From Alistipes sp. dk3624 (GTDB lineage Bacteria; Bacteroidota; Bacteroidia; Bacteroidales; Rikenellaceae), in NCBI RefSeq assembly GCF_009557455.1, contig NZ_CP045651.1, forward strand, positions 744,001 through 808,000: a stretch of DNA of 64,000 nucleotides, given 5' to 3'. Every line of letters begins with the position of its first letter. Positions within the stretch are counted from its first letter, which is position 1. This document shows positions 34,301 through 57,892 of this stretch, one piece after another. The position numbers were made by a program, and so were the translations under genes. Below the pieces are notes generated by a model. It was not told the origin of the DNA. It was given only the letters and a program-made list of their open reading frames with translations, and did not search any database.

Positions 34301-34412
34301 CCGGTTACATTTGTTCTCTTTTAAGGCTGCTCCGATTTTATTCTACTTTTCCCGTTGATACACAATTTACTTACATCACCGCTAATCGTCAAATTTGATT
34401 CTTCTCCCATGA

Positions 34413-37400
34413 TTATGGATCTACTACGCAACGCACAAAGCAAGCATCCGAACCTCCGGATCTAATTAGGTTGTCCGTACTGATAAAATTGAAATCAAAT
34501 GAAAAATAGTTGATATCCCATCCCAGGCTGGCACCATCCGTCGGCGTAAAGTAGTCTTTAGGAATCTCCGCGTTTAACCAATAGATGGCTCCCGGTCGTT
34601 TGTATATGTCGTAAAACAACGGACGATCTTTAGGATCTGGATATAATTTTGTTCGGCCGCCAGCATATCTTAATACTCCATTGAGGATTTCAGGATCTCC
34701 CCAACTGGCAGTATAGCTTTGTTTTCTGTGTCCGTAGCCGGAGGCGCCAATGGGGAAGAACAGATTTTTGCCCGTATCGCTGTTATACGCGAAACAGCCT
34801 CTCATTCCACGTCCAGACGTACTGTGTTCATAGTCATAGCCGTAAGCATCTACGATATCATCGGCCGTTTCCGTGGCATCATCTCCGTACAATACACCGT
34901 ATCCCTGCTCTACATTATCCGCCCTCAATTCCCAAAAGTCTGCGGCTGTAGCCACCCTGGCATTCGCCATTTGAGGAGCACCGAACTTATTGTCCTTACC
35001 AAGATTAGTAATGGTTGTCCACTCCATTTTGACTCCAGTTCCTGCATTGGTAAAGCCATCTTCAGGATATACTTTGAAATCTTCCGGCGTGACATTTATC
35101 CACGGTTCAAATGGGTTTTTATTGCTCAATGCGTCTATCGGCTGATTCCAATTTCCGAATTTGAACAGCGACCCTTCGTCCAACGGAGTGGAAGCCAGGT
35201 CGGTCGAAGTCTTCATATTCTTGGCATACCACTTCACGCCGCCTGTAACCAAATCGTCAGGCTTGTCACCTTGCCGTATGAAAATCAGATGCTGGCAGGT
35301 ATAATTGTGATATTCCACGCGGATAATAGCGTAACGGTTCTCTGTCGAACTCCCGGAGAAATCCACGCTGAAGTCAATCTCGCTGCCGGTTTTACCATAT
35401 ATGGCTTTTCCATATTCCGGATCATCCTTTAACTCTGTTTTGTCCGATGTTACCGACAGGGTGATTCCATCTCCGTTATATCTCTTGATGACATAGGCTT
35501 TCCATGGGCCTTCGGATTGGAATGTCTTGAATATTTGGTCATTCTCTCTCGGCAATCGCTTCAACACGACATGAAACGACTTATTATTTTCGGAAGATCG
35601 ATATATGCCCTTCGGATTCACGACACGACGTACCTGGTATATCGGAACTTCATTATAAAAGCACTCATCCAATCCTTCCAGCTTAGTTGTAATCTCGACT
35701 CTCGCCAATCTCTGATATGCCACGTAAGGATTGTTTCCGGTGTATCCGGTCGTTGATATCATCTGCTTGGCGCACGTGTACATAGGAATATATATGTTGT
35801 ATGTATTCTCTTCCGTAGGATGTTTCTCTACACGGTATTTATCGTCCGATTCAGAACCGGCAGTCGTAAAATCTTCGGATATTTTACCGTCGGGCAAAGT
35901 AAAATCTTTATATTCACGTTCTCCTCGTTTAGGAACAGTATTGTAGTATTGCTCATTTGTTCCGATTTTATCTGCATATAGGACCGTTTCCGTTGTTTTA
36001 TGTAATGACAGGAAACCGTTCCACGGTGCGTCAACACCATTCAGAGCACCCGTATAATAAATATCGCTGCTGGCGTTATGGGGCGCCCAATTGTTTTCCT
36101 TGATTTCCGCTTTTATGTACTCTATCTTTCGACCGCCAGTATTCACCTTAATGGGATACATCATGGAATGGTTGTACAGGTATGAGATATAATAGGGCTC
36201 AGGAGTCATCACGCCCGGCTCCGGCTCCTCGTACTCGATATGCCAGTCCGCCTCGTTCGCGAAGTTTTTGAATTTCAATGTCAGCTTGTAGTGGCAGTTG
36301 CGCTTGGCGTTATAATCATGTATCACGTCCTGTCCCAGCATGAAACGATAAATGATGTGCCCGTTACCCAATCGCTCGGAATTGTTGGAGATGTAGTGCG
36401 CATGTACCTCAATGTATGTACCGTAAGGTACGTTATCTTTTAGGCGGTAATCAGGGTATTTATCCGGCTTGTTCGGCAATCCGGGGAAATCCAATATCCC
36501 GTTACCGTCTGAATCCTGCCTCTTGTCAGGCATACTACTACCCGCTCCCTGTATATTCTCGTAAAAGTATAGTGCGGGAGCTGTTTCATCGTGAGAACCG
36601 AAATGGGGACTACCTACCGTGACACGATGGTCTGCACAGCCTTCCCCGTATTCAAAATCCTCTGTTATATCTCCTTCATGATAAGTAATGATTTCTCCAT
36701 CAATCATATCAGGCCCGGTCTCTGGTACATCCAAGGTGTACCCCTCTTTTCCCACATTATTTTCCTTTCCCAAATAGCATTGCAAAGGAATATCTTTAAT
36801 CTGCACGGATTGGAGATAGATAAACACTCCTTCTTTCAATGCGCTACCGTCGTATGCCACGGTCACTTTAGAAGCCGCACGGCGTAGCCACGCGTGGAGT
36901 TTTATGCTTTTTTCATTTACTACAAGAGACTCGTCGTCCGCCGATAGAGCAGGAACGGAGCTTTTAGTGAAAAAGCCAATCATCTGGCCATTGTTGGTCA
37001 CGTTTTCGGAGTCCCATGTGAGGGGAATACTTTTGAGCTCGTCTATCGTTTGTATGGCATCAGAATAGGCCGTATTTGTAAGCAGGTCTGGGATGTTCGC
37101 CACGGCATACATATAATATTTGCCGAAGTTGATTTCCTCCGGCAGCTTGAAAGTGGCGCGTTTGGTACTTGTTTCCGCACTGTTCCCGTTTTCAGCATTC
37201 GTATCATCACGTTTTTCATCGGACACGGAATATTCTTCTATCTCCCAACTGTTTATTAACTTCTTTGTACTGTGATCATACAACAATATATGCAAGCTAT
37301 TGATACCCTTTAATGCATCTCCGGCAGCCCGTGTCCGGCTCAGTGCCGAGGACATGGGTTTGAAGTCCAGCGTGGCAGATATACTTGCCTTGCCTTCACC

Positions 37401-37490
37401 TATGGTTTCTTCCTTCATAAATTCGTCATAACAACCTGTAACGGTTGAAATCATCAGGAAGAGAACGGTATGTCGTACAAAATGCTTCAT
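34413..37490 (-). CDS. Large fimbrial tip/adhesin lipoprotein (Mfa-type, DUF4906-like)
   Basis: About 1025 residues starting MKHFVRHTVLFLMISTVTGCYDEF; the upstream ATG at 37529 would overlap the previous gene. Lipobox Cys20. The N-terminal third resembles Mfa/FimA-type domains (INSLHILLYDHSTKKLI), the middle is beta-rich, and the C-terminus (residues about 780-1025) resembles FISUMP/lectin-like tip domains ending DACFVRCVVDP. Last gene of the operon and by far the largest, typical for the tip adhesin at the far end of the fibre. Ligand unknown. Confidence 0.75.
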   Translation of the reverse strand: MKHFVRHTVLFLMISTVTGCYDEFMKEETIGEGKASISATLDFKPMSSALSRTRAAGDALKGINSLHILLYDHSTKKLINSWEIEEYSVSDEKRDDTNAENGNSAETSTKRATFKLPEEINFGKYYMYAVANIPDLLTNTAYSDAIQTIDELKSIPLTWDSENVTNNGQMIGFFTKSSVPALSADDESLVVNEKSIKLHAWLRRAASKVTVAYDGSALKEGVFIYLQSVQIKDIPLQCYLGKENNVGKEGYTLDVPETGPDMIDGEIITYHEGDITEDFEYGEGCADHRVTVGSPHFGSHDETAPALYFYENIQGAGSSMPDKRQDSDGNGILDFPGLPNKPDKYPDYRLKDNVPYGTYIEVHAHYISNNSERLGNGHIIYRFMLGQDVIHDYNAKRNCHYKLTLKFKNFANEADWHIEYEEPEPGVMTPEPYYISYLYNHSMMYPIKVNTGGRKIEYIKAEIKENNWAPHNASSDIYYTGALNGVDAPWNGFLSLHKTTETVLYADKIGTNEQYYNTVPKRGEREYKDFTLPDGKISEDFTTAGSESDDKYRVEKHPTEENTYNIYIPMYTCAKQMISTTGYTGNNPYVAYQRLARVEITTKLEGLDECFYNEVPIYQVRRVVNPKGIYRSSENNKSFHVVLKRLPRENDQIFKTFQSEGPWKAYVIKRYNGDGITLSVTSDKTELKDDPEYGKAIYGKTGSEIDFSVDFSGSSTENRYAIIRVEYHNYTCQHLIFIRQGDKPDDLVTGGVKWYAKNMKTSTDLASTPLDEGSLFKFGNWNQPIDALSNKNPFEPWINVTPEDFKVYPEDGFTNAGTGVKMEWTTITNLGKDNKFGAPQMANARVATAADFWELRADNVEQGYGVLYGDDATETADDIVDAYGYDYEHSTSGRGMRGCFAYNSDTGKNLFFPIGASGYGHRKQSYTASWGDPEILNGVLRYAGGRTKLYPDPKDRPLFYDIYKRPGAIYWLNAEIPKDYFTPTDGASLGWDINYFSFDFNFISTDNLIRSGGSDACFVRCVVDP

Positions 37491-37506
37491 ATACTTATTT
37501 ATTGTT

Positions 37507-38679
37507 TTATAATCCGAATTCCGGTTCAAGGATTACCTCGCTATATGGAATCACATCCACTATGATTTCATTACTATTATACATTGTTATATCCACCACG
37601 ACATGGGTGTTGCGGAAAAGTGCCTTCAAGTTGGGTAACTTGCAGACGAAAGGTTCATCCCTTCCGGTTATCTTGATTGTCAGGGTGTACTCCTGCTCGC
37701 CGTCTGTTGCTCCCGCTTTGGGGCTTTTGCTTTCGGGCAGGTAGAAAACGGGAATATTCTTCGCCACACCCGGTTTCGAGTTATCGGGGTTGTCTATATC
37801 CACTGTCGGTTTTCCAACGGTAACCGTCCCGTGGGTATAGGTGATTGCCTTATCCGCTTGTGCCGGCAGTTCGTAGTCTTTCAGCCAGCCGGCGGCTTCC
37901 GTGACGGCGTAATCGTCATTTTCGGACGAGGCGTCGGAAACCTCCTTCAACCAATCTATCCAAGTTTTTCCGTTGAAAAGTTGCTCGTTTTGTTCGCTGT
38001 CATTGACATGCGCCATCAGAAAGTTCTTGTCGGCATGGCTCGCTATGGTGAAATTGTCCACAATTACTTCCTCTCCACGCCAGTTCATAAAGTTCACCAT
38101 GAATTTGGTGGCGACACGTACCACGTAGAACGTCCCGTCGAAATTCCCTTTTTCAGGAAAATCTATCTCGTACATGGAAGACATCGGGATGGGTTTTCCG
38201 CCCGAATAGTCCGGAGCGAAATAGAGGTTGTTCACCGCGGCTTCAAAGCCGGGCATTCCTTCTGTATAACTGTTGAAGAAAGCGGTCAGCGTTTGATTTT
38301 CACCCTCTACAGTTACACCTTCTACCGTGGACACGCTCTCTTCATTGGCGAAGAGGAATATCTTCTTCTTTTCGTTCGGTGTTACCTTGAGTAAGATGGT
38401 TTTCTGTGCCTGCGCACCCTCCAGCGAAAAGTGGCGGTTATGTTCCACCGTTCCGTCAGCCGCATGTAGTACAACCACGCGTACACTGTTCATCTTCTCG
38501 TTGTCGGGCAGTTCTGCCGTACTCGCCCTTGTTTGTCCTATGGTGGCGATATTCAGATACAGGGCAGCTTCCGTAACGTTGTCCGGCAAGGATTCTTCCT
38601 GACTGCTGCACGCCACCATAAAAAGCAATGCGAATGCCGTCAGGCAGATTACAATGCTATGTATAATGTTCGGTTTCAT
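37507..38679 (-). CDS. Fimbrial accessory lipoprotein (FimA/Mfa superfamily)
   Basis: 390 residues, lipoprotein signal ending FMVACSSQE. Beta-rich with the family's opening pattern (AALYLNIATIGQTRA...MNSVRVVVLHAADGTVEHNRHF) and the Arg before the mature domain that gingipain-like proteases cut in related fimbriae. Its C-terminus MYNSNEIIVDVIPYSEVILEPEFGL fits a donor strand. Probably an adaptor between shaft and tip. Lies between the Mfa2-like anchor and the tip gene. Confidence 0.7.
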   Translation of the reverse strand: MKPNIIHSIVICLTAFALLFMVACSSQEESLPDNVTEAALYLNIATIGQTRASTAELPDNEKMNSVRVVVLHAADGTVEHNRHFSLEGAQAQKTILLKVTPNEKKKIFLFANEESVSTVEGVTVEGENQTLTAFFNSYTEGMPGFEAAVNNLYFAPDYSGGKPIPMSSMYEIDFPEKGNFDGTFYVVRVATKFMVNFMNWRGEEVIVDNFTIASHADKNFLMAHVNDSEQNEQLFNGKTWIDWLKEVSDASSENDDYAVTEAAGWLKDYELPAQADKAITYTHGTVTVGKPTVDIDNPDNSKPGVAKNIPVFYLPESKSPKAGATDGEQEYTLTIKITGRDEPFVCKLPNLKALFRNTHVVVDITMYNSNEIIVDVIPYSEVILEPEFGL

Positions 38680-38700
38680 CAGTCCAACCCTTCTTCCTGA

Positions 38701-39768
38701 TTATTCAATTTCAATGTTACTCGGCACCACACGCCAAGAGTGAATCAGTATGTAGCTGTTGATCCACTGGTTGTCCTCGTCAAGGAAGAATGTCATCACA
38801 TAGTCGTCCTCGCGGTCCAGGAACTCCTGGTCGGTCATCGAACGGTTGTACTCTTCCTCGTAATAGTCCTTTGCCAACAGCGCATAGTCTATCACCGGGA
38901 TGCGGGCCACCGTTTCGCCGTCTTCTTTGCCGGCGATGGTCAGAAACATCTTCTCACGATGTGTTTCCATCATACGTCCCACGGTCAGGTCGGCGATGGC
39001 CCCCTTTACTTGGATGACGGCACGGGTATCATCTTTTCCTACGCCAGCCTCGCCGTTCTGCGTTTTCCAAGGACGGTAGGTAATGTTCTCGTCTTCCATC
39101 AATTCATTGTCATGAGCCATCAAACCGTTCTCGTCCTCTATACGGAAGACGAATTGATTCACATCCACATCCTCTCCCGAAAGGTGATGCAGTATGACGC
39201 GGACATGATTGGTGTTCTTGGTCAGGCACATGGTGTAATCGTAACTGCCCCCGTCATCGTTCGAGGGCAGCGACACATCCAAAGTGCCATGAAAGAGCCG
39301 GTAAAGCCTTTCTTTGCTGTATGCGCCGGACTCGTCGTACTTACGGTTCAGGGCACACTGCAACTGCTTCATACGGGTCTCGCCGACACGGGCTTCGGGT
39401 ACGGAGAAAGACTCTTCACGCTCGCCATCGTTCCGGAGACCGCACCATGCCAACAGTCGATAATCGCCGGCGGGCAGGTCGAGCGACATCGAGTAGTTCT
39501 CCGCCGTAGTCGGATCTATCTGTTCTTCACGCTGCCATACCAGTACACCCGATTTGTCGAAGGCATACAGGTGAACTGATGAAACCTCGTTTGCGAAAGC
39601 ATCAGCCCACTTCAAGTTCTTATCGTAACGGAATTTGAGCCGGTAATATACCGAACAGTCGCCTTCTTCCTCGTAGAACCATCTGTCGCAGGACGGAAGA
39701 GCCGACAGGCAGACTGACGCCACGCAGACCTTGGCTGCCAAATTCCTTATCATTGCCCGTATATCCAT
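38701..39768 (-). CDS. FimB/Mfa2-family fimbrial anchor
   Basis: 355 residues with a lipoprotein signal (LAAKVCVASVCLSALPSCDRW). The mature start YYRLKFRYDKNLKWADAFANEVSSVHLYAFDKSGVLV is the FimB/Mfa2 signature. These proteins anchor the fimbria in the outer membrane and limit its length. It lies downstream of the major subunit gene, as usual. Confidence 0.88.
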   Translation of the reverse strand: MDIRAMIRNLAAKVCVASVCLSALPSCDRWFYEEEGDCSVYYRLKFRYDKNLKWADAFANEVSSVHLYAFDKSGVLVWQREEQIDPTTAENYSMSLDLPAGDYRLLAWCGLRNDGEREESFSVPEARVGETRMKQLQCALNRKYDESGAYSKERLYRLFHGTLDVSLPSNDDGGSYDYTMCLTKNTNHVRVILHHLSGEDVDVNQFVFRIEDENGLMAHDNELMEDENITYRPWKTQNGEAGVGKDDTRAVIQVKGAIADLTVGRMMETHREKMFLTIAGKEDGETVARIPVIDYALLAKDYYEEEYNRSMTDQEFLDREDDYVMTFFLDEDNQWINSYILIHSWRVVPSNIEIE

Positions 39769-39998
39769 ATCGTTTACTCTTTCTTGATATTTATATATTG
39801 TGTGCGGAATTTCCGCATCCGGATTTTCTCGTCAAATGGGATACCTGTCTTGCGTTCAGGTCTCCGATGCCGCACCTCCCTTGTGTACCGGTGGGCGGGT
39901 ACTGTATTCGTTATTCTGTTTAATTAATATGTGTGGGAGACGGGAGCCGCCTCCCACACTGTATGTATCAGGAACGCCTTCGGGCGTCCGGGTTCATA
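39769..39998. other. Gap between major subunit and anchor genes
   Basis: 230 bases without an open frame. CTCCCACACTGTATG near 39950-39965 suggests no strong hairpin. Probably a transcribed spacer where readthrough sets the subunit-to-anchor ratio. Confidence 0.3.
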
Positions 39999-41726
39999 TT
40001 ACCACTTCAACTCATAGTTGTTCTCGACAATGCGCCAAGACAGGATATCGATTTCAGCAGCGATGTAGTGGTCATTGTCTTCGGGCTTCTCGGGATAAAT
40101 TACCTGGTCGGGATCGTAAACAGGGGTGCCGAGACCGGCGATCTTAGTCACGGTTGTTTTATATATGTGATTGCGAACTATACCTTTGGTAGCCGTTTCG
40201 TTAGTTTGATTAGCTTCTTTATGATGAATAATCTCATAGTAATAGTAGGTCATACCGGACTTCCAGACCAGAGCCCTGTCAACTATATCCTTGTCTGCAA
40301 GTTTGCCGTTAATGACATCGGATGAAACAGTTGCCGTCACGGCGGTGTTTGAAGAAGTGTACCACTTCTTCGCTTTTGCGACATCTGTCAACTGGGCATA
40401 TACATAGCAGTTGCGCGCTTTTCCATCGCTTGGCTCGGATGTTGCCTGTCCCACGATTACAATCTTAAGATCGCTGGCACTAAGCCCTGTACGTGTCGTG
40501 TTGTCTCCCGAATAGTAAGTATATCCACCGGCTGTCAATTGATTGAGAATACTTGCCTTCAATACGGGGAGGTTTGAAGACTCGGTCGTAGAATATGTGT
40601 CGGCAGAATAGATACCCAAGTGTCTTATAATAGTGAAAGGCGTTGTACCGTCTGCCTTACAAAGAGTCCCCTTGAGGATAACCTTGGTGCGGTTGATAGA
40701 GGAACTCGCATAATCCAAAGCATTCTCATTGGTGTACAATGAAGTGCTAAAGGCATTATTGATAGTGTTGTTGTAAGTATCATAGTCGTTCGCGGCATCC
40801 TCAGAATTGATGGCCCAGAAACTGCGGTGTGTGCCGTTCCACCAACTACTTGTCCATGTGGGATCAATAGCCTTGACCAATCTGCCCTCATCGGTTTCGG
40901 CGGTCAGGCTCCAACCGTTGAGTTTCAGGTAAACCTGTTCTCCACCTACTGGTACTTTGAGGTCATTACCATCCTTATCTTTCAGTGCAAGTTTGTCACT
41001 GCCGGCAGCACTTACAGCAGAACCCAGGGCAACGCTGACCTTGGCCACGCTACGCTCGACATAGATTGTGACGGGGTTGGCCTTGGCAAGGGCTTCAGTC
41101 TTCTGTAGATGGTCAGACTCGATAGGGACAGCACATACCTCTGCGCTATTTTCCCCATATACGGAATTGAACATCACGAATTTGCCTTTTGTGGTCAGAC
41201 CGGTGGCGGCATAATCGGCGGCAACAGCCTTCAGATTGGTAAGGCTCATTGATGTGTTACCCAAAAGGACATTACCATCATCATCTCTGGGAGGATTCAG
41301 CACAGCCGCAATTCTCTGCGGAAGTCTGTCTCCGTCCTTGGTACTGATGACAATCGTGGCCTTGAGTTTACTTCCGATATCATCGTTGCCATTTCCGTCA
41401 GGAAACGTCTGATCCGCATCAGTGGGTTCCCAGTCATAGAAGTTTACATAGCTGCCGTTTAAAAGTTTAACGTTAGCAACGGCGCCGTTCGCGGTGAAAA
41501 AATAAAAACGGACTTTTTCAACATCGTTTTCGGCTTCACTTCCATCCTCGTAACCGGCAGCGGCACGAGTACCTGTCACATCAGAGGACATCAGGTTTAC
41601 GGCCATATAGCTGGTATTGGCCTCACCGTTACCGTTGTCCTCGCCGCCAGGAGTAATCTCCTCCTGTGAGCATCCTGCCATAAACAGGGCTGCCAGCATG
41701 GACATGAATAAAAAATTTCTTTTCAT
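39999..41726 (-). CDS. Major fimbrial subunit (Mfa1/FimA-type fimbrillin)
   Basis: 575 residues. Lipoprotein signal MKRNFLFMSMLAALFMAGCSQEE, then the N-terminal fimbrillin domain (MAVNLMSSDVTGTRAA, with TRA as likely protease site) and a C-terminal Mfa1 domain ending LSWRIVENNYELKW, which should act as the donor strand for polymerisation. Longer than P. gingivalis FimA and nearer to Mfa1. It is the shaft of the fimbria made by this operon. Confidence 0.9.
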   Translation of the reverse strand: MKRNFLFMSMLAALFMAGCSQEEITPGGEDNGNGEANTSYMAVNLMSSDVTGTRAAAGYEDGSEAENDVEKVRFYFFTANGAVANVKLLNGSYVNFYDWEPTDADQTFPDGNGNDDIGSKLKATIVISTKDGDRLPQRIAAVLNPPRDDDGNVLLGNTSMSLTNLKAVAADYAATGLTTKGKFVMFNSVYGENSAEVCAVPIESDHLQKTEALAKANPVTIYVERSVAKVSVALGSAVSAAGSDKLALKDKDGNDLKVPVGGEQVYLKLNGWSLTAETDEGRLVKAIDPTWTSSWWNGTHRSFWAINSEDAANDYDTYNNTINNAFSTSLYTNENALDYASSSINRTKVILKGTLCKADGTTPFTIIRHLGIYSADTYSTTESSNLPVLKASILNQLTAGGYTYYSGDNTTRTGLSASDLKIVIVGQATSEPSDGKARNCYVYAQLTDVAKAKKWYTSSNTAVTATVSSDVINGKLADKDIVDRALVWKSGMTYYYYEIIHHKEANQTNETATKGIVRNHIYKTTVTKIAGLGTPVYDPDQVIYPEKPEDNDHYIAAEIDILSWRIVENNYELKW

Positions 41727-41792
41727 TGTCGATAAATTAAAATGTTTGAAAATATTGTTCCTTATCTCTTGGTTTATCCTGTCTATTTGAGG

Positions 41793-43220
41793 TCATTGCA
41801 ATCTTTCGTTCAGTTCGTCGAGCGTCCTGCCGGCCTTTTCAAATCCCATCTCTTTCGCCTTGCTCAGGTACCGGCGTGCCGTGTTATAATCTTTCTTGCG
41901 TATGGCTAATGCGCCCCGTGCATAGACAGCCTCGGCGGAGTCGCCTGCCTTGTCGAGATACCTATGTGCCGTTTCAAAATCATCGCGCCGGATAGCGGCA
42001 TTGGCGGCATTGAGGTTTGCAATCTCATCGTTCGGGAACATACGCACGGCTGTTTCAAAGACATCGGTAAACTCATCCGTGCCTGGCTCATACTTTCCGG
42101 CAACGAGGTAGAACTCATTCTGACTTAGCTTCTGCGGCTGCTCAGCCATAATGCGCTTTATCTCTTCCACTTCGCTGAACGTGCGTATGGCGTAGTCTAT
42201 GCGGTAGTCCGTATGGCGCAACGCCGGATAGAAATGTTGCAGCATGAAGCGGTATTCTTCCGGGTAAGTGCGCTTGATCTTTGCCTCCTTGGCATCCGGT
42301 TCCATGTCGCTGTCTATCAAAGCCAGAATCTCCCCGCGATGGTTAATGTTCGATTGTTCCACCTGACGGCGCAGGCCCGCCCAGTCTTCCGGTTCGTAGT
42401 CTGTCCGGATGATACTGTCTGCAAAGTGGTACAGCTGCCCGATGTGCTTTTTAAGTGCGGCTGTACGCCCGATGGCCAGCTCCGTGTTGTGCTTGTAGGG
42501 ACTTTCCGGCGAAGCGAAACCTTTCAGCCACACGGAAGTGATGGAGACATCCTTGTCGTTGCGTACGGAGTCGATAGTCGCCTGTATCTTGCCCAATTCG
42601 ACCGTATTGCGACGGTAATCGGGATAAATCGCCGTTTGGTCGACCGGGAAGTCTATGTATGCCGATCCGGATAACGAACGACTTTTCATGATTTCCGCTT
42701 CGGGTTGCACAAATATCAATTCCGGGAAGAAAGCTTCTCGATGACGCCCCAATACGCCTTCGTATTCCGCCAATATCTCGTGACAACACCCCCAATCGCT
42801 GCGGTGGAATTTAAGCGTTGCCCCGTCCATCCAGTCTTCGTACTCCGTAAGGTTATTGTATGCCAGACTGTTCGGTTTGCCCGACGCGCGATAAACCGTT
42901 TCATTTTCACCTGAGATACTGCCTATGCCGTTCCGTACGTAATAGTAATACCGCCTGCGCCCGTAAATTCCCACCGAGGGCAGGTCAAGAGAATCCGTCC
43001 CGTTGACCAAACGCGGCGTGAGCAGCACGGCACGGTTGGCATCCACATCAAGTTTGTTTATATCCAAATTTATCTCCACGGCAAGGTATTTTCCCTCTCG
43101 ATTCATGTTGGAATTTTCGACGGAAACACCAGGTATGACAGTATCGGTATTTTGTCCTACCGCTTCTGGCAAATGTCCCAATCCCAACAGGATTACCGGT
43201 ATGAGTATTGTTCTTTTCAT
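41793..43220 (-). CDS. DUF3868/OmpA-like fimbrial-locus protein with TPR tail
   Basis: Start at MKRTILIPVILLGLGHLPEAVGQ (43220), a good signal peptide; the longer frame overlaps the upstream gene. About 475 residues. N-terminal DUF3868 domain, a central OmpA-like stretch (VWLKGFASPESPYKHNTELAIGRTAALKKHI) near 210, and C-terminal tetratricopeptide-like helices (NDEIANLNAANAAIRRDDFETAHRYLDKAGD). Such genes accompany DUF3575 genes in Bacteroidota fimbrial loci, perhaps as outer-membrane assembly factors. Confidence 0.82.
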   Translation of the reverse strand: MKRTILIPVILLGLGHLPEAVGQNTDTVIPGVSVENSNMNREGKYLAVEINLDINKLDVDANRAVLLTPRLVNGTDSLDLPSVGIYGRRRYYYYVRNGIGSISGENETVYRASGKPNSLAYNNLTEYEDWMDGATLKFHRSDWGCCHEILAEYEGVLGRHREAFFPELIFVQPEAEIMKSRSLSGSAYIDFPVDQTAIYPDYRRNTVELGKIQATIDSVRNDKDVSITSVWLKGFASPESPYKHNTELAIGRTAALKKHIGQLYHFADSIIRTDYEPEDWAGLRRQVEQSNINHRGEILALIDSDMEPDAKEAKIKRTYPEEYRFMLQHFYPALRHTDYRIDYAIRTFSEVEEIKRIMAEQPQKLSQNEFYLVAGKYEPGTDEFTDVFETAVRMFPNDEIANLNAANAAIRRDDFETAHRYLDKAGDSAEAVYARGALAIRKKDYNTARRYLSKAKEMGFEKAGRTLDELNERLQ

Positions 43221-43234
43221 GTTAGTTGCATTTT

Positions 43235-43819
43235 TTAGAATAGATAAACCAGGTTGATGGCCGCTTTGGTGGGGCCCATGTAGTGGTGGGGCTTGTCCGT
43301 TTCCACCTTTTTGCCGCATCCGCTACACCGATACCTGTCATAGCGGGTATAAGAGTAGCCCAAACCGATTTCCGTTTCCAGATTCCAATGGCGGCCAAGG
43401 ATAAAGGCGTAGCCGTATGATACGCCCGCACCGATAAACCAGCCTTGATAGCGGGTATCTTTCAGCTTCCGGAAGTCAGTGCCCAACATATTGATTTTCC
43501 CGTCGAATCCGCCGATGTTGTACTGTCCGCCATGTAAATGCGCACCGAAAAAGTGTCCGCCGAAGCGGTCGCATAGCCAATAGCGAACTTCCGGCTGCAC
43601 TGCCCAGTGCTTCCACCGCCTGTCATGCGAAAGCGTCCATCCGTTGAACTGTCCGCTCACGTCCAATGTCCACCTGGGGGCGAATCCTACTTCAACACCC
43701 AGATTCGGGCTGAAAAAAGCATCGGAAAGCAGGTTGGTTTTCACCGCCACCTTCTGCGCATAGAGTTCCTGCGAGACACAGGAAACGACTATCGTAAACA
43801 ATAAAAGCGCGCGTTTCAT
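43235..43819 (-). CDS. DUF3575 outer-membrane protein of fimbrial locus
   Basis: 194 residues, signal peptide (VVSCVSQELYAQK), then KTNLLSDAFFSPNLGVEVGFAPRWTLDVSGQFNGW. Alternating aromatic strands suggest a small beta-barrel, ending in a Phe as outer-membrane proteins do (NLVYLF). It is followed after 14 bases by the DUF3868 gene. Role in fimbrial secretion or anchoring inferred from consistent co-occurrence. Confidence 0.88.
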   Translation of the reverse strand: MKRALLLFTIVVSCVSQELYAQKVAVKTNLLSDAFFSPNLGVEVGFAPRWTLDVSGQFNGWTLSHDRRWKHWAVQPEVRYWLCDRFGGHFFGAHLHGGQYNIGGFDGKINMLGTDFRKLKDTRYQGWFIGAGVSYGYAFILGRHWNLETEIGLGYSYTRYDRYRCSGCGKKVETDKPHHYMGPTKAAINLVYLF

Positions 43820-43869
43820 TTTCTATCTTCTATTTATCGTTTTACCATATCATTTATTCAAATATCTAA

Positions 43870-44343
43870 CTACGATGCTTCAGTCCAGGCAATAAAAAGC
43901 GGCAATACAGACGGACACGGCAACTCCATGGTCTGGCATGTATCGTTGATAGGTATGATGATAGACACCTCCGGAAAGCGGCGGGAGTCAATTGATACAA
44001 AGAACGCCTTCGTTCCGGCGTACAAAGCATTGCCGGCACAAATCGCATTCTCTAAACACCGGTACGGACCCTCTCCCGAGAACCGTACGACATGCGGTGT
44101 CTTTCCCGAACTATATCGGAAACTGGCATCCCCACCATGCAAGCCGGTGGATTCGAAAAAAAACTGTGATTTTTTTATAAAAAGACCATAGATACCGGTA
44201 ACCGATCGGTATCCGATGACAGCACTCTCCGTACGATAGATCGGCCTTGACGCCGACTGTTGGGCGCGAAGGAGATTGAAAGCCCCTGCACCTATGAAAC
44301 ACAGGCAGAGAGTAAGACACAGCATATACAGCCTTTTCTCCAT
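43870..44343 (-). CDS. Exported hypothetical protein, first gene of fimbrial operon
   Basis: About 157 residues from MEKRLYMLCLTLCLCFIGAGAF, a clear signal peptide with several Cys; the open frame begins earlier, inside the leader. Not recognised. It is the first gene downstream of the invertible segment and lies 50 bases ahead of the DUF3575 gene, so its transcription should depend on the switch. Confidence 0.6.
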   Translation of the reverse strand: MEKRLYMLCLTLCLCFIGAGAFNLLRAQQSASRPIYRTESAVIGYRSVTGIYGLFIKKSQFFFESTGLHGGDASFRYSSGKTPHVVRFSGEGPYRCLENAICAGNALYAGTKAFFVSIDSRRFPEVSIIIPINDTCQTMELPCPSVLPLFIAWTEAS

Positions 44344-44429
44344 ATACGGGTTTCGTTTTGTGTTAAAAACTAACCGGTTATGGTGCCGTGTGCCGCAATC
44401 TAACAAAGGCCCGCAGAGGGACTGTACAA

Positions 44430-44456
44430 CGATTCGCTATGTTTAGCGAAAAACCA
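44430..44456 (+). repeat. Left inverted repeat (IRL), 27 bp
   Basis: Core TTCGCTA-TGTT-TAGCGAA is itself a palindrome of two 7-base arms, as expected for a tyrosine-recombinase crossover site; flanking bases CGA and AAACCA are also conserved with the right copy. Confidence 0.85.
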
Positions 44457-44820
44457 GAAACAATTGCTGTGTATAATGCGCTTATACACAGCCTGAAATA
44501 TCACGGACAATGTTTTACCGGAACGCAATCGCATTTCCGGGTAAATGATACGAGACATAATGCATTGGTTATAACCAGACTGCGGGAGACCGGCAAATAT
44601 CGAAACGGTAAAACAATGCGCTGCAAGACGGCGCGGAGATGTACGAAAAAAAGCGTTCCAGACCGCTTACTGTGCGGTTTGTGGAGGGATCGGTTGCATG
44701 GCGATAATAGGTCCGAATAGGACACGATGCGGTAAAACAATCGGGGACGCGGTAAAACGGACGGACTTATCAAGAAAACTCCGTACCCGGACTATCCTGA
44801 TTTACTGTTCTTATATTTTT

Positions 44821-44852
44821 TTTGCATAAAACGCAGATAATGTATATTTTTG
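44821..44852 (+). promoter_or_regulatory. Consensus promoter inside invertible segment, facing away from operon
   Basis: TTTG at 44821-44824 and TATTTTTG at 44845-44852 with a 20-base spacer, an exact Bacteroidota promoter. It reads right, into the 3' end of the convergent recombinase gene. Confidence 0.75.
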
Positions 44853-44920
44853 TATCATAAAATGAAGACCAGTCCGGTTTTGTCTGTTTGTTGGCAGCAA
44901 GGATACGAAATCAGACAAGA

Positions 44921-44937
44921 TTCGCTAAACATAGCGA
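44921..44937 (-). repeat. Third recombinase core site inside the segment
   Basis: TTCGCTAAACATAGCGA, the same core as the right repeat, same orientation, starting 33 bases before the right core (44921 versus 44952-44953), without the outer flanks. May be an accessory or alternative crossover site. Confidence 0.65.
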
Positions 44938-44945
44938 TTTTACTT

Positions 44946-44972
44946 TGGTTTTTCGCTAAACATAGCGAATCG
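44946..44972 (-). repeat. Right inverted repeat (IRR), 27 bp
   Basis: Exact reverse complement of 44430-44456. Confidence 0.85.
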
Positions 44973-45006
44973 CATGCTTAGGGCGGTTTCCCCCGTTCCC
45001 TCTTTT

Positions 45007-46260
45007 TCAATACAGCTTCGTGACTTTTTCGTTGATCCGGTCCACCGTGCCGCTGTCGAGTTGCGCCAGGTAGCATCGCGTCGTCCGTTCCGAGGTGTGG
45101 CCCAGGCCTTCGCTGATATGCGGCATCGGGACGCCCATGCCCCGGGCCTCGGTCGCCCACGTATGCCGGGCCACGTTGAAGGTCAGCCGGCGGCAGCCCA
45201 CGCTCCGCGAGACTTTCTTCAGTTGTGTGATATAGTATTGCAGGGCCATGCGGTAAAAGGTATATAGTTTTCCGGGCGGCATGTCGCCAGCCATCTCTTC
45301 GTTTCTGAATGCCGAGCGGATCATGCCCCGCCCCATGCAGGGAAGCGCCCACGGGGAGGCGGGATCGTCGTAGCGGGAGATGATCTCCTGCAGTTGCGGC
45401 GTAAGGGCCACGCTGAACGGCTGGTGCGTCTTCTGCCGCTCGTAGTGCAGCGTGCCGCCACGGATATTCTCCTTACGCAGATAGCATATATCGACGAAAG
45501 ACATGCCCCGTGCGTAGAAACTGAACAGGAACATATCGCGAGCCTCGTTCAGTTCGCGGTCCCCGAAATCACTGGTGGCGAGGATACGCAGCAGACTGCG
45601 GTTGACGGCCAGTTTCGGGGTTCGGGCGGGCTTGAACGACACGTTCGGAAACGGGTCCCGGTGGATGGGGGCGCAGCCGTACACGCGGGCGCGGTTGTAG
45701 AGTGCATGCAGGGTCCTCAGATAGAATGTTACCGTATTGCGCTTGCGGCCCCGGCTTTCGAGGTAGGCCGCAAAGGCGGAGACCGTACCGCCGTCGAGCT
45801 GCGAAAAGCGCCATTGGCGGTGGGCCGCGAACTTGACCCACGCGCTCCGGAGCGAGCGGTACGAGCGGGCCGTGCCGAAGCGTCCAGCATTTTCGAGTTC
45901 GCGGGCAACATGCTCTGCGAAGATCTCCACGTAGCGGTTGTCGCCGCCGAGCTTATACGTTCCAGTGATGTCCGATACCGTGTAAGGTTTGCCGGTCTCG
46001 TGAAGGCGGTCGGCGATGGCTCGCAGTTGCCGGATATACTCTTCGATGCACTCATTCGCATCGCGGATCAAGGTGAGGTGGGCTTTGCCGCGGTTCGTAG
46101 CCACGGCACGCCCTCTCCGGGCGTCGAACTCTTCGGGGCGCAGGCGGTAAGGGGTGGTCAGGATGCTGCGGCGGCGGTTGTGGATCACCTGGACGATAAG
46201 CGCACGGCGCCCCGCCGAGTCTGGTCGGTAGTTGAGCCTGGGGGTAATGGAGGTTTTCAT
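45007..46260 (-). CDS. Tyrosine recombinase, probable fimbrial DNA invertase
   Basis: Start at MKTSITPRLNYRPDSAG (46260), typical for this family; the longer frame to 46611 has no support. 417 residues: arm-binding N-terminus, SAM-like core domain (residues about 115-215), catalytic domain with FYARGMSFVDICYL (Arg), ERQKTHQPF (Lys), FNVARHTWATEARG and GLGHTSERTTRCYLAQ (Tyr nucleophile). It ends 34 bases from the right inverted repeat, in the arrangement of locally acting invertases such as Bacteroides Tsr proteins. An integrase of a lost element is the alternative. Confidence 0.87.
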   Translation of the reverse strand: MKTSITPRLNYRPDSAGRRALIVQVIHNRRRSILTTPYRLRPEEFDARRGRAVATNRGKAHLTLIRDANECIEEYIRQLRAIADRLHETGKPYTVSDITGTYKLGGDNRYVEIFAEHVARELENAGRFGTARSYRSLRSAWVKFAAHRQWRFSQLDGGTVSAFAAYLESRGRKRNTVTFYLRTLHALYNRARVYGCAPIHRDPFPNVSFKPARTPKLAVNRSLLRILATSDFGDRELNEARDMFLFSFYARGMSFVDICYLRKENIRGGTLHYERQKTHQPFSVALTPQLQEIISRYDDPASPWALPCMGRGMIRSAFRNEEMAGDMPPGKLYTFYRMALQYYITQLKKVSRSVGCRRLTFNVARHTWATEARGMGVPMPHISEGLGHTSERTTRCYLAQLDSGTVDRINEKVTKLY

Positions 46261-46897
46261 TGCGTTGTGCTTTGATCGGTTTATAAACTCTTGCGATAAA
46301 CACCGGTAAAGCACACCCGAAAGCATAAGTGCAGGTGTTCCCACTACGGCCCTTCGAATGGAAGCATCGGGAATTCTGCATGATGGTATTTGTAGTTTTC
46401 CATTTTTTCTCTGTTTCCTTGCGGCATTACCCGTGTCTGAAATGATACATAAGGGCCCCAAGATACGCTTATTTGTCTGTTTGTCGACATGCAACGGAGG
46501 GTCTGACATCTGCGGCCGTCTTCTTCCGGACAATCGAACGGCCCCAGAAGAATCGTTTTCGAACGGGAATCGGTAAAAAAGGTAATTTGCCGGGCAAGGT
46601 ACATACTGCAAGTTGTCACTGTTTCCAATAATCCGACACCATTTAATAACGCTATTTCAGATGATTGCGTTAAAGTGCCAGCCGGATCGCTCACCGACTA
46701 TCAGACTGCCGGGGAGAGGATTTGGGTCACATAGAGGTTATAACGGACCACATACCCTTGCTAACCGAATAGCCTGAAACACGAAGACCTGGGACGCATA
46801 GGGATGCATTTTACCCTTGTGTTTCGGTTTTGCTACATATGGTGAATTCATAAAAAAGTCCATAACTTACTGATGACAGCATAATTATGGACTATAT
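46261..46897. other. Non-coding region upstream of recombinase
   Basis: No gene supported in 637 bases. A weak inverted repeat (AGTCCATAA ... TTATGGACT, 46857-46895) lies next to the start of the maturase remnant. The recombinase promoter should be here, but no exact consensus was seen. Confidence 0.4.
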
Positions 46898-47673: not shown

Positions 47674-48075
47674 CTATTTCCCCAGCACGGGAATCTGCAC
47701 CTTTCCTTCGTCCCAGTCGCTGACCGTAACGGTAATTTCAGAGGATGTGACGTCGATGTGGATCGGAATTATCACCTCTTTACCGCAGTGATAATCGATC
47801 CGTTCGCCGTACCGGGCCAGGTAGTCGGACAAAGAAATCTCTGCGATCGTCTCTTCTTCCGATCGCAAGGCCATCGAGTCGGTAAAGCGTTCCCCGAAAG
47901 CGGTTATTTCCCGCAGAAACACTCCCGTAGGGTCGAACAGCAGGGAGGCCATATGTCCGACCTCTTCATGCGTCGTGTTATTTCCCTTTTTATCGGTGTA
48001 CCGGTATTCCACCACGAGGGTCGGTTTGGGATTGATCTCGATGTCGGTATCCTTTTTCAGCGAGCAGCCGCACAC
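47674..48075 (-). pseudogene. Truncated fimbrial (FimB/Mfa2-like) lipoprotein remnant
   Basis: 133 codons. It begins just at a lipobox-like CGCSLKKD and shows the family opening LVVEYRYTDKKGNN...MASLLFDPTGVFLREI, but has no signal peptide upstream and lacks about half of the usual 300 residues. The end ITVTVSDWDEGKVQIPVLGK looks like a fimbrillin C-terminal strand. The upstream side abuts traN head to head. A relic of a deletion or recombination. Confidence 0.5.
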
Positions 48076-48078
48076 TTT

Positions 48079-48927
48079 GCGGAAGCACCGGCACAGGATA
48101 CCGTCCGCACGTTTTCACAGCGGCAGGTCGTGGAGCCCTGCCGGGTGGAGGTCGCTTTCAGCAAAACGCTCCACATCCTTTTCCCCTCGGAGGCGGTCTA
48201 TGTCGATCTGGGGAGTCTCGACCTGATCGCGGACAAGGCGGACGGGGCGCGGAACGTCGTGCGCGTCAAAGCCGCGAAACAGGGCTTCGAGGGAGAGACG
48301 AACTTTTCGGTCATCACGGCCGACGGATGCTTCTACTCTTTCACGGCGGTCTATTCCGAAAATCCTTCCCGGCTCAACATCGAGATGGAGGACTGACTGC
48401 ACAAAGATCCCTACTCGGATTTTGCGAACCGGCAGACGTACATACGTCTCGACGAACTCGCCGGGGAGACGCCCCTTACGGTCAACCGGATCATGTACAC
48501 GATTCTCAGGCGGAACGCTCGGGACATCCGAAGCGTCGGCAGCAAGCGTTTCGGAATGGAGGTACTGCTGCGCGGAGTCTACGTGCACGGCGATCTGTTC
48601 TATCTGCACGTGCTGATGCGGAACCGTTCGAAGGTGGCTTTCGACATCGACTACATACGCTTTAAGGTCTGCGACCGGAAAACGGCACGCCGGACGGCCG
48701 TGCAGGAGACCTTCGTGAACCCGGTACGGGTATTCGACGAGATCACGCGCGTGGATGCGGAGGCTATGGTAAGGAACGTATTCGTGTTCCGCAAGTTTAC
48801 GATTCCGGACGATAAGGTGCTGGTCATGGAGGTTTACGAGCGGGGCGGCGGACGTCACCAGCATTTCGAAATCGAAAACGTCCGTTTGGTCGGAGCGCGC
48901 GAGATGGATGAACTGAAAATCGAATAG
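48079..48927 (+). pseudogene. traN: Conjugative transposon protein TraN, truncated and interrupted by TGA
   Basis: The frame AEAPAQDTVRTFSQRQVVEPCRVEVAFSKTLHILFP...SRLNIEMED, TGA (48394-48396), LHKDPYSDFANRQTYIRLDEL...GARE MDELKIE is TraN of Bacteroidota CTns, a periplasmic mating-pore (VirB9-like) protein. The signal peptide is missing because the head-to-head fimbrial remnant begins there. The TGA falls between MED and LHKD, where a Trp or Phe would fit. Followed after 3 bases by traO. Confidence 0.8.
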
Positions 48928-48930
48928 GCG

Positions 48931-49518
48931 ATGCGAAGGAGAATTTTTATTCTGCTGGCCGCGGCGGGACTGCTGGGGCCGGCGGCCGAACTATCCGCAC
49001 AGCGGTGTCTGCCCGGACAGACGGGCGTTCAGCTCGGCGGGGGCGCTTGCGGCGGTTTCCTGCTGCGCGACAAATACGGAGCGTGGAGCTTTCATGCGGA
49101 ACTGTCGGTAGTCCGCTATGTCCGGAAAACCCGTTACTGGGAGTTCGGAGCCGGGTATCTGAGAAAGGACTACCCGTACCGGGAAGCGATGCTGCCCAAA
49201 GAGCAGTTTACGGCCGGGGCGGGATACTTCGTTCCCGTTGCGCGTGACCGCCGGGACAATTTTCTGGTAACGGCAGGGCTCTCCGGGGTGTTGGGGTACG
49301 AGACGGTCAACCGGGGCGGGAAGCGGCTCTATGACGGGGCTACGTTGGTCAGCGGAAACGGTTTCGTCTACGGCGGGGAGATCGCCCTGAGAGGCGAAGC
49401 GTATCTGTGCGACCGGGTGGCGCTGTTGCTGACGCTAAGAGAGCGGGTAACGGGCGGATCGTCCGTCGCCCGCTTCCATACGCTGCTGGGCGCGGGGCTG
49501 AGGATTATGATTCATTAG
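48931..49518 (+). CDS. traO: Conjugative transposon protein TraO
   Basis: 195 residues, signal peptide MRRRIFILLAAAGLLGPAAELSAQ, then the TraO pattern GQTGVQLGGGACGGF, a small outer-membrane-like barrel with C-terminal LGAGLRIMIH. Intact, but stranded: upstream traN is broken and the rest of the transfer operon is absent. Part of its 3' end is duplicated at 60025-60068. Confidence 0.85.
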   Translation: MRRRIFILLAAAGLLGPAAELSAQRCLPGQTGVQLGGGACGGFLLRDKYGAWSFHAELSVVRYVRKTRYWEFGAGYLRKDYPYREAMLPKEQFTAGAGYFVPVARDRRDNFLVTAGLSGVLGYETVNRGGKRLYDGATLVSGNGFVYGGEIALRGEAYLCDRVALLLTLRERVTGGSSVARFHTLLGAGLRIMIH

Positions 49519-49529
49519 AAACGAAAAAA

Positions 49530-49709
49530 ATGGAAACCGTTATGGTAAAGACGATAGCGGCCGGCTGTACGGTCTTGCTGACCGCGCTGGCACTTTGGGC
49601 CTGCAACGATAAAATCGACGTGAAGCAGGCTTATCCCTTCCGGCTGACCTCCTGGCATTTGCCCGAAGAAATCGCAAGCCGCGATGATAACGAACACGTT
49701 TATCTTTGA
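49530..49709 (+). pseudogene. traQ: 5' part of conjugative transposon TraQ (DUF3872)
   Basis: Lipoprotein signal METVMVKTIAAGCTVLLTALALWACNDK followed by the TraQ start IDVKQAYPFRLTSWHLPEEI, 11 bases after traO. The family match ends near 49677, and the frame runs into unrelated sequence and a TGA. The matching 3' end of a traQ gene is found at about 60070-60267. Confidence 0.75.
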
Positions 49710-49795
49710 AAAGAGGCGAATACGCGGAAATTATCATTGGAAAAACGGCATTCAGTACCAAATAGGTCGGCAGACAGCCTTAATAAAAGCCAGTT

Positions 49796-51127
49796 ATGCT
49801 CAGACGACTACATCCGGAATTATTATGAAACGACCCGTAACGCACTGCTCGTTACCGGCGCACGGCAGATCGGCAAGACTTATTCGATCCGTCAGTTCGG
49901 CAAATCGTTCAAAAGTTTCGTCGAGATCAATTTCATCGAGATGCCCGAAGCGGTGGAGCTGTTCAAAGGGGCGAAGAGCAGCGGCGATATGCTGCTGCGC
50001 TTGTCCGCCCTGACTTCCGTACCGCTTATCAAGGGGGAAACGCTCGTTTTTTCGACGAGGTACAGGAGTGTCCCGAGATCGTTACGGCGATCAAATTCCT
50101 TGTGGACGAAGGCTCGTACCGTTATATCCTCAGCGGTTCGCTGTTGGGGGTGGAGTTGAAAGACCTGCGTTCGGAGCCGGTCGGATATATTGGTGTCAAG
50201 GATATGTACCCGCTCGATTTCGAGGAGTTCATTTCATGCGTGGGTATCAGCGATGCCGTGATCGGGTCGCTGCGCGAAGCGTGGAAGCGCCGCGAGGCCG
50301 TCAATGAGTTCGTTCACGGCAAGATCATGGAACTGTTCCGGCTCTATCTCATCGTGGGCGGTATGCCGGCCGCTGTGAGCAGGTACATCGAGAGCAATAA
50401 TCTTCAGGAGGTAATGGCCGTACAGCAAGACATCATCCGCCTGTACAAACGGGACATTGCCCGGTACGACCCGGGCAACAAACTCTATATCGAGGAGATT
50501 TTCAACCTGATTCCGCCCGAGCTGAATGCCAAAAACAAACGCTTCATTCTGAAGAGGCTGAACGAACATGCGAAGTTCGATCGGGTCGAAAGCAGTTTTC
50601 TGTGGCTGACCAACGCAGGAACGGCGTTGCCGGTTTATAACGTGGAGGAACCGAAAGTCCCGCTTTTACTGGCCCGTTCGCGCAACCTGTTCAAACTCTT
50701 CCAAAATGACGTGGGACTGTTGGCCAGCCAGTATGCCGAGGGCATCCAGCTACGCATTATCAACGGAGACAAGGACATCAATTTCGACTCGGTTTATGAG
50801 AACGCCGTAGCGCAGGAGTTGGCGGCGCACGGCATCGCCACATATTATTACAACAACAAGAAACGGGGCGAGTTGGATTTCGTCATCGCACTGGGCGGTA
50901 AGGTTCTGCCCATCGAGGTAAAGTCGGGCAAGGACTACGAAACGCACCGCGCCCTGTCCAACATTATGGATTGCAAGGAATACGACCTGCAGCAGGCTGT
51001 CGTATTCAATAACGACAACCTGAGGGTCGCGGGTAAGATCGTCTATGCTCCCGTCTATATGGCGATGTTCCTCGAAAAAGAGAATACGGCTCCTGCCTAC
51101 TATAAAGTGGACCTGTCGGGATTATAA
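49796..51127 (+). pseudogene. AAA ATPase with DUF4143, one-base frameshift at Walker B
   Basis: The N-terminal part reads DYIRNYYETTRNALLVTGARQIGKTYSIR (Walker A GARQIGKT). At GETLVF the frame breaks: six T at 50046-50051 where seven would give LVFFDEVQECPEI (Walker B). From 50102 the frame continues as LVDEGSYRYILSGSLLGVELKDLRSEPVGY through the DUF4143 nuclease-like C-terminal domain (GELDFVIALGGKVLPIEVKSGK, a D...ExK motif). The first codons are also out of frame. These ATPases are widespread accessory genes of unclear function. Probably inactive as written. Confidence 0.8.
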
Positions 51128-51287
51128 TGCGGTTAAATTTTTTAAGGCGATACAATATGTAGCTTTTTAAAAGATTGACGCAGGAGGGTATAAAAACAGA
51201 GATCGGTTATCTTAGCAACAAGATATTGGTTTGCGCAGATTTTACGTTATCCTGTACAATCGAATATCCTCTCCATTTTACCCCTTC

Positions 51288-53846: not shown

Positions 53847-53928
53847 AACCGTATCTATTTTTAAATCTTTAGTGACCGGAAGAGGTATCACCCTCTTCCG
53901 GTCTGTGTTACCAAAACGTCTCCTTTAT

Positions 53929-54846
53929 TTATGGCTGAGGAAGTTCGGGATCGGGCGTCACAGCAGTCCAATCTTCAGCAATGGAAGACTCGAATTCGAT
54001 TATATTGAAAATCGGATCCGTTCCGCCGCCGTGCGAATCGGCGTCAATAATCATCTTCAACAAATAATGCTTGCCTTTTTCGAACTCATCGGCGGGGATA
54101 TTGCCAGTCGCAATCGTATACTGCTGCAGATCGCCACTGTAGATTGTGGTTCCGTTTTTCGTTATCGTTATGCCGGCTGTAATCTTCACTTTACATCCTG
54201 CCGAACTTTGCGGTATAATCATGTAAGACGCTGCTCCTGCATAGGTTGCAGACGTTGAATTAGGAGAGGCCCATGCAGGAGTAGTGGCCGTCGGATCAAT
54301 TGTTCCTCCTGTCGATTGAACATCCAGGCTGGCAGTAAGCCCTATTGTGCTGAGTTGGTAGCCAGCATCTGACAAGTCATCATGCAATTGGGCTGTAACG
54401 GTGATTTTGGCCAACATATGGGAAAAAGCCAAACCAACAGTGCCGGAAGTCAGGCCCAGTTGAGGAGCGGCAATGGTAAAATCCTTGTTGGCATTTGCTG
54501 GAACTTCATAGGCGATTGAGAGAGTCGGATAAGTTCCGGTCGCCGCAACGTCTGCCGGAGCCCATGCGTAAAAATCCACACTACCGGAAGCGGGCCAGTA
54601 GTAAGGGCCGCCGCTGGGGACATCGCTTGCACTTACCTGATCGTTGATAAACCAGCCTGTCCCACCACTCCAAGCCGCATAAACCCGGTAAGGATCATTC
54701 CCATCGTTTGCGGCACGGGTCAATTTGTCGTTCAGGTTGGTAAATTTGATCTGCTTCGGAGTGAATCCGTCAACGTTTTCCTGTTCGTTTTTCGAACAGC
54801 CTGCTAATATGGCCGCCGCTGCCAGAGCCATTAAGATTTTTTTCAT
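53929..54846 (-). CDS. Fimbrillin-family lipoprotein
   Basis: 305 residues, signal MKKILMALAAAAILAGCSKNE, mature start FTPKQIKFTNLNDKLTRAAND with the TRA site. Motifs VDFYAWAPADV, LAFSHMLAKITVTA and ASYMIIPQSSAGCKVKI are typical of Bacteroidota fimbrillin-like proteins. Probably the shaft subunit of the second fimbria. 82 bases separate it from the tip gene. Confidence 0.85.
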   Translation of the reverse strand: MKKILMALAAAAILAGCSKNEQENVDGFTPKQIKFTNLNDKLTRAANDGNDPYRVYAAWSGGTGWFINDQVSASDVPSGGPYYWPASGSVDFYAWAPADVAATGTYPTLSIAYEVPANANKDFTIAAPQLGLTSGTVGLAFSHMLAKITVTAQLHDDLSDAGYQLSTIGLTASLDVQSTGGTIDPTATTPAWASPNSTSATYAGAASYMIIPQSSAGCKVKITAGITITKNGTTIYSGDLQQYTIATGNIPADEFEKGKHYLLKMIIDADSHGGGTDPIFNIIEFESSIAEDWTAVTPDPELPQP

Positions 54847-55015
54847 TTTGATTCGAATTATGCGTCGTTCGTTAATCTTTTAAAATTTTGTTTTCTTTAT
54901 TTTCACTTTCGCCTTGCAAAGGTGAAAATTAGGAGTGTTCCCCTGTCCGGTCGGTAATCGCTTTTTTTTACTTTATCACGTCTTTAAACAATATTATTTA
55001 TTGATAACCAATATC

Positions 55016-56077: not shown

Positions 56078-56094
56078 TATTCGCTTTCTTATTC

Positions 56095-57423: not shown

Positions 57424-57892
57424 TTTTTTATTAATGTGGTGCTGATAATTACAAAGAAATATATTCGTGTTCAATCAGTTTCAGGAGTACAGAGAATGCC
57501 ATAACTGGTTGCGGATAAACTCTTTAAATTTTGTCATCTTTGATTTAGTGAAAAACGCTGTAAAATTAGACTTTGTTATGCCTGATTTTGTGGTAATTAG
57601 CTGTAATATTAGTATTTTGGTTAAGTGCCATGAATCAGAAAAACGATTAATTATCAGCGACATACATATGATTTACAATTATATAATGTTATGTATATGT
57701 TATGTAGTATAGTAGGTCTCTAATTCGATTGATTGAAGGTAAATGCAGATTGAGAAAGGGTATGGGGATTAGTTGCACGGAAAATGCATACTTTTGGCAT
57801 ACAATTCAAATTCATATAGCCGCGTGTAACTTTCACGAATGAACGGCAGTTGTCAACATGTTTAAGGGATTGTTGTTTTTGTGACGGAAATT
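57424..57892. promoter_or_regulatory. Divergent intergenic region between fimbrial operon 2 and its regulator
   Basis: 469 AT-rich bases between divergent genes, so promoters for both must lie here. Near-consensus TCATCTTTG at 57536-57544 reads rightwards. Unlike operon 1, no long inverted repeats or recombinase lie nearby, so control is probably by the DUF6377 protein instead. Confidence 0.45.

Follow-up and report, generated by a model that had tools for sequence, protein, structure and literature searches.

The locus described here raises the question whether a short DNA segment in front of a fimbrial operon of Alistipes sp. dk3624 acts as a switch for these fimbriae and, if so, which enzyme operates it. 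Promoter inversion by tyrosine recombinases is widespread in Bacteroidales. A preliminary description of the 64,000 nucleotides analyzed (the window) had proposed such a promoter, caught in its OFF orientation upstream of an Mfa-type operon and adjoining a tyrosine recombinase gene. This proposal held up, as a natural relative carries the segment in the ON orientation between colinear flanks. Based on the comparisons below, the 543-bp segment is very probably a phase-variation switch (inverton) that would be flipped by the adjoining tyrosine recombinase and would control a type V fimbrial operon. The coordinates of all features are given in Table 1.

Table 1. Features of the fimbrial operon, the putative switch and the recombinase gene (positions within the window).
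Feature	Position	Strand or state	Remark
DUF4906 protein	34413..37529	-	domain match
Minor or tip-associated fimbrial subunit	37507..38679	-	weak, sub-cut-off matches to Mfa1 and FimD models
Mfa2-family anchor subunit	38701..39768	-	domain match
Mfa1-family major fimbrillin	39999..41726	-	Fimbrillin_C; NCBIfam NF038041 above cut-off
DUF3868 gene	41793..43319	-	domain match
DUF3575 gene	43235..43819	-	first conserved operon gene
Doubtful first ORF, 157 aa	43870..44343	-	frame not conserved in relatives
Segment, putatively invertible	44430..44972	OFF in window	inverted (ON) in G216/L096, OFF in G267/L097
Left inverted repeat	44430..44456	+	operon side, 27 bp
Dyad CTGTGTATAA-tgcgc-TTATACACAG	44467..44491		operon-side end of segment, 25 bp; kept in both relatives
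Predicted Bacteroidota-type promoter TTTG-N20-TATTTTTG	44821..44852	+	points away from operon
Motif TTTGTCTGTTTGTTGGCA	44879..44896	+	leader, directly downstream of promoter
Third core copy	44921..44938	+	17/18 bases; direct to right core, 31 bp inside
Right inverted repeat	44946..44972	-	recombinase side, 27 bp
Tyrosine recombinase, 417 aa	45007..46260	-	Arm-DNA-bind_5, Phage_int_SAM_5, Phage_integrase
Second motif copy	46472..46489	+	~210 bp upstream of recombinase start; kept in both relatives

The segment has the layout of an inverton, with inverted repeats bounding a promoter-bearing stretch close to its target operon. Its two arms of 27 nt each are 100% complementary and enclose 489 nt, giving 543 bp in total. 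Both contain a quasi-palindromic 18-base core, TTCGCTA-TGTT-TAGCGAA, located at 44433-44450 in the left and at 44952-44969 in the right repeat. A pattern search allowing up to two mismatches found this core confined to the present locus in the 3.02-Mb single-contig genome. Perfect inverted repeats in 100 simulated 3-kb sequences with matching dinucleotide composition reached 15 bp at most; together with the inverted relative, this rules out a chance repeat. The third core copy is retained in both close relatives. Other elements of the segment are the dyad near its operon-side end, which is possibly a protein-binding site, and CGGTAAAAC, present in four copies in the segment and five in the 64-kb window. 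These copies could serve as arm-type sites for the N-terminal domain of the recombinase.

The promoter match within the segment is exact, with TTTG (44821-44824) and TATTTTTG (44845-44852) separated by 20 bases. The strict consensus is matched three times in the 64-kb window, against ~0.5 expected occurrences, and would be expected ~0.01 times in a stretch of the segment's size. The match in the segment is the sole one in the 3 kb preceding the DUF3575 gene. As assembled in the window, the promoter is aimed at the recombinase gene from its 3' end; this reading frame stops at 45007, 34 bases beyond the right repeat. The perfect 27-bp repeats around 543 bp, the exact promoter directed away from the operon and the recombinase end 34 bases past the right repeat, all named in the preliminary description, were recovered as described. 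The motif TTTGTCTGTTTGTYGRCA in the leader has exactly two exact copies in the genome of the window (44879-44896 and 46472-46489), and two in the genome of the relative G216 as well. It could represent a shared operator, or it could allow pairing of the leader with recombinase transcripts. The folding z-scores of the leader were -4.8 in the window, -3.7 in L096 (G216) but -0.6 in L097 (G267), thus no leader RNA structure conserved among these three loci was found; the strong folding in the window and in L096 is aided by the palindromic core sites.

The operon behind the left repeat encodes, in one transcriptional direction, a fimbrillin of the C-terminal-domain type, an Mfa2 anchor and a tip-type DUF4906 protein, and is by this composition a type V (FimA/Mfa) pilus locus. 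The DUF4906 protein is likely the tip adhesin, a role that we infer. Six operon genes are colinear in G267 at protein identities of 60–91%. Seven fimbrial genes had been counted previously, starting at 44343; six of these are conserved and stand, while the seventh, the ORF at 43870-44343, does not, since its frame is broken in both close relatives. More than 200 bp of it are missing in G216, and frame-breaking indels occur in G267. This stretch may be a leader RNA or a decayed gene. To the right of the switch (47674-57474 of the window) lie a TraO conjugation gene, a short fragment resembling Mfa2 and another cluster of fimbrial type, which comprises Mfa_like_1 proteins and a DUF3575-domain protein.

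The product of the adjoining gene is a tyrosine recombinase, with a SAM-like core-binding and a Phage_integrase domain. The C-terminal active-site boxes are intact and include ARH at 364-366, LGH at 386-388 and the tyrosine of the TTRCY sequence (Tyr397). The NCBIfam models gave only XerC/XerD-type matches below cut-off and thus no named invertase family, and sequence matches in the PDB were weak and confined to XerC-like and integron enzymes. Scanning the genomes of 84,980 species with the recombinase revealed relatives of 98% (L004, from G216), 89% (L005, from G267) and 64% identity (L006, Alistipes montrealensis), followed by sequences of ~30–39%.

The two closest relatives provide the decisive evidence. 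G216 is a metagenome-assembled genome (MAG) from goat caecum that belongs to another GTDB genus than the window. Its left flank (87% identity) and its right flank including the recombinase (97%) are oriented as in the window, while the 489 bp between the repeats are reversed at 95% identity. The breakpoints of this inversion fall within the repeats. Since the promoter in G216 is directed at the operon, we regard this copy as the ON form. The third core copy has travelled with the segment, which assigns the exchange to the two outer sites. G267 shares the layout of the window and is likewise OFF. Both of its outer sites read TTCGCTATGCTAAGCGAA, and the inner copy bears the same change; such a matched change would be expected from continued use of the sites. 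The promoter of G267 is ATTG-N20-TACTTTTG and retains the 20-base spacing. The inverted segment between colinear flanks in G216, the co-changed sites of G267 and the preserved promoter spacing argue for an inversion switch rather than a chance repeat. Both orientations thus occur in nature, OFF in the window and G267 and ON in G216. With one orientation seen per assembly and the ON copy stemming from a MAG of another genus, this flip is a difference between lineages, not within a strain.

Based on these features, the following mechanism can be proposed. The adjoining recombinase would bind both inverted sites (44430 and 44946), thereby inverting the 543-bp segment. In the assembled orientation, the only consensus promoter would aim away from the type V (Mfa-type) fimbrial operon, which would be silent or expressed at a low level. 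Once inverted, the promoter, which we presume to be active, would transcribe across the site and a leader of several hundred bases into the operon, and the genes for DUF3575, DUF3868, Mfa1, Mfa2, the minor subunit and DUF4906 would then be transcribed in this order. If flipping continues within a single strain, as the matched sites suggest, the population would be a mixture of fimbriate and bald cells.

Close relatives of the recombinase were detected in 8 of the 268 genomes of the family, one of them with two copies. Compared with 76 other Bacteroidales recombinases, these nine form a single clade (support 100/100). The gene adjoins a DUF3575/DUF3868 operon in seven of the nine cases (the window, G216, G267, G006, G012, G017 and G019:C7), and in six of these operon-linked members repeats bound a segment. 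In G177, a partial DUF3868 match shares the contig with the clade recombinase. In A. montrealensis, the contig stops 37 bp beyond the site beside the 64% identical recombinase. This would fit an assembly break of the sort that can occur at variable sites, yet is suggestive only. Another A. montrealensis contig starts exactly at the 18-base core (G019:C7:1-18, L162), inside a fimbrillin-like ORF, and this core is the same as that beside the 64% recombinase. This reflects either a flaw of the assembly or a site in a pilin gene. G006, a member of the window's genus, holds a 60% identical recombinase next to the operon, has only one core site and lacks the segment (L098:7640-7953). Since G006 keeps the gene under these circumstances, the recombinase can persist without a switch, and the locus is possibly a natural locked form.

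In G019:C7, G012 and G017, inverted repeats of 17–18 bp bound ~1.2 kb between recombinase and operon. All three segments hold an AraC-family gene (L099:6754-7695, L100:8914-9798 and L102:6027-7049), and in two of the three a consensus promoter is located close to the recombinase-side end. Judged from this arrangement, we infer that these segments invert as well, so that a single inversion would turn both the AraC regulator and the promoter. None of the ~1.2-kb segments was seen in inverted form among the relatives, and our literature search found no paper on an AraC regulator within such a flipping segment. As a side observation, the promoter upstream of the DUF3575 operons of L153 and L154 lies between shorter repeats (20 bp and 14 bp, ~270–310 bp apart), and L153 has a tandem duplication of the DUF3575 gene.

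Other explanations of the locus need to be weighed against these data. The repeats might be operator dyads for a transcription factor instead of recombination sites, as the 18-base core is near-palindromic and three copies of it surround the promoter. However, operators would give no reason to expect a copy inverted at breakpoints within the repeats, and such a copy exists. We thus consider this explanation extremely improbable. If the repeats are recombination sites, the segment might still be inverted by another tyrosine recombinase of the genome, leaving the adjoining gene a mere bystander. Bacteroidales are known to possess cross-acting or remote invertases, an invertible promoter of P. 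vulgatus flips despite a broken neighbouring invertase (PMC13114119), and the single-site locus of G006 has retained its recombinase. Against this, the genome of the window has no further occurrence of the core outside this locus, and recombinase and site co-vary among the relatives and remain adjacent across three genera. A bystander role is accordingly very unlikely in our view, and the product of 45007-46260 is probably the invertase of the segment.

A related concern is whether the switch still moves. It might be frozen or very slow and effectively fixed OFF in this lineage, with the operon driven from an unrecognized promoter or not at all. One orientation per assembly, and a segment that was lost or never present in G006, are what such a scenario would lead one to see. 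The repeats are nevertheless exactly identical in both the window and G216, as under continued use, and the outer sites of G267 match each other despite an altered core. In addition, recombinase and promoter are intact. A frozen switch therefore appears unlikely, and we favor the reading of the segment as a working inverton.

The distribution of sequence identity points to a further property of the locus. Window and G216:C59 have only 43234-46675 (3.4 kb) in common, at ~94–96% identity except for a leader stretch of 87%. This block comprises DUF3575, leader, segment and recombinase with its upstream region. In contrast, mnmE and its neighbours are ~69% identical between the two genomes, and divergent versions stand in place of the later pilus genes in G216 (DUF3868 46% and Mfa2 34% identical to the window). 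Since the block is ~95% identical between genera with mnmE at ~69%, it probably moves horizontally; a recent transfer or recombination between the genera would be the simplest reading. With G267, the window has 34391-46649 in common at 79–86% identity, which covers the whole operon and the switch. The right edge of the common block is nearly equal in both comparisons. A search for mobile-element ends revealed no direct repeat of at least 9 bp common to both edges. A near-identical switch block beside different pilus subunits in two genera suggests separate evolution of phase control and pilus type, each as an exchangeable module. One might speculate, tentatively, that recombinase, sites and first pilus gene form a self-contained cassette that passes between Rikenellaceae genera and is placed before different pilus sets. 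A feedback element, the 44879/46472 motif common to the switched leader and the recombinase upstream region, would keep the cassette in check, and cassettes of the same kind in sister lineages would have taken an AraC regulator into the flipping segment.

How does this locus compare to known systems? Its design had been held to be undescribed for this fimbrial family with this 18-base core. The kind of switch is in fact known, as PMC12632263 reports, citing Weinacht (2004), a phase-variable type V pilus locus under a tyrosine recombinase in B. fragilis. The part concerning the core sequence appears to stand, since the literature open to search, with key subscription papers outside it, yielded no account of the 18-base core, the recombinase clade or an Alistipes fimbrial inverton. 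Fimbrillin genes are enriched beside invertons in general (PMC11892184).

Among the better-studied switches, fimS of E. coli with FimB and FimE resembles the window in that promoter inversion by tyrosine recombinases controls fimbriae (type 1). This is an analogy only, since the chaperone-usher fimbriae are unrelated, two recombinases act and the promoter is of another type. The Mpi system of B. fragilis also controls surface structures through inverted Bacteroidota promoters, yet there one serine invertase serves many sites at capsule promoters, whereas the enzyme adjoining the present segment is a local tyrosine recombinase with one locus. Closer in layout are the Bacteroidales invertons with an adjoining tyrosine invertase (L007-L083; a kind treated in PMC11892184), an arrangement usual at capsule/EPS loci. 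As in the window, their repeats commonly lie 30–60 bp past the recombinase stop, their core is near-palindromic and some contain a promoter. Unlike the window, their recombinases are only ~30–39% identical and belong to a separate clade, their segments mostly measure ~190 bp and their core is of the type TCTCTTnnnAAGAGA. Any fimbrial match nearby was detected in 4 of these 77 distant relatives.

Most similar is the Tsr locus of B. fragilis (Weinacht, 2004, as covered in PMC12632263), which has the tyrosine recombinase, the invertible promoter, the phase-variable fimbrial subunits and the order Bacteroidales in common with the window. It belongs to a different bacterial family, and the likeness considered here is one of described design. 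Core sequence and third site are peculiar to the window locus and its two close relatives. Taken together, the locus adds a Rikenellaceae clade, with a recombinase subfamily and a site sequence of its own, to the known cases of recombinase-driven type V pilus switching; three natural states, OFF, ON and single-site, are available for comparison in this clade.
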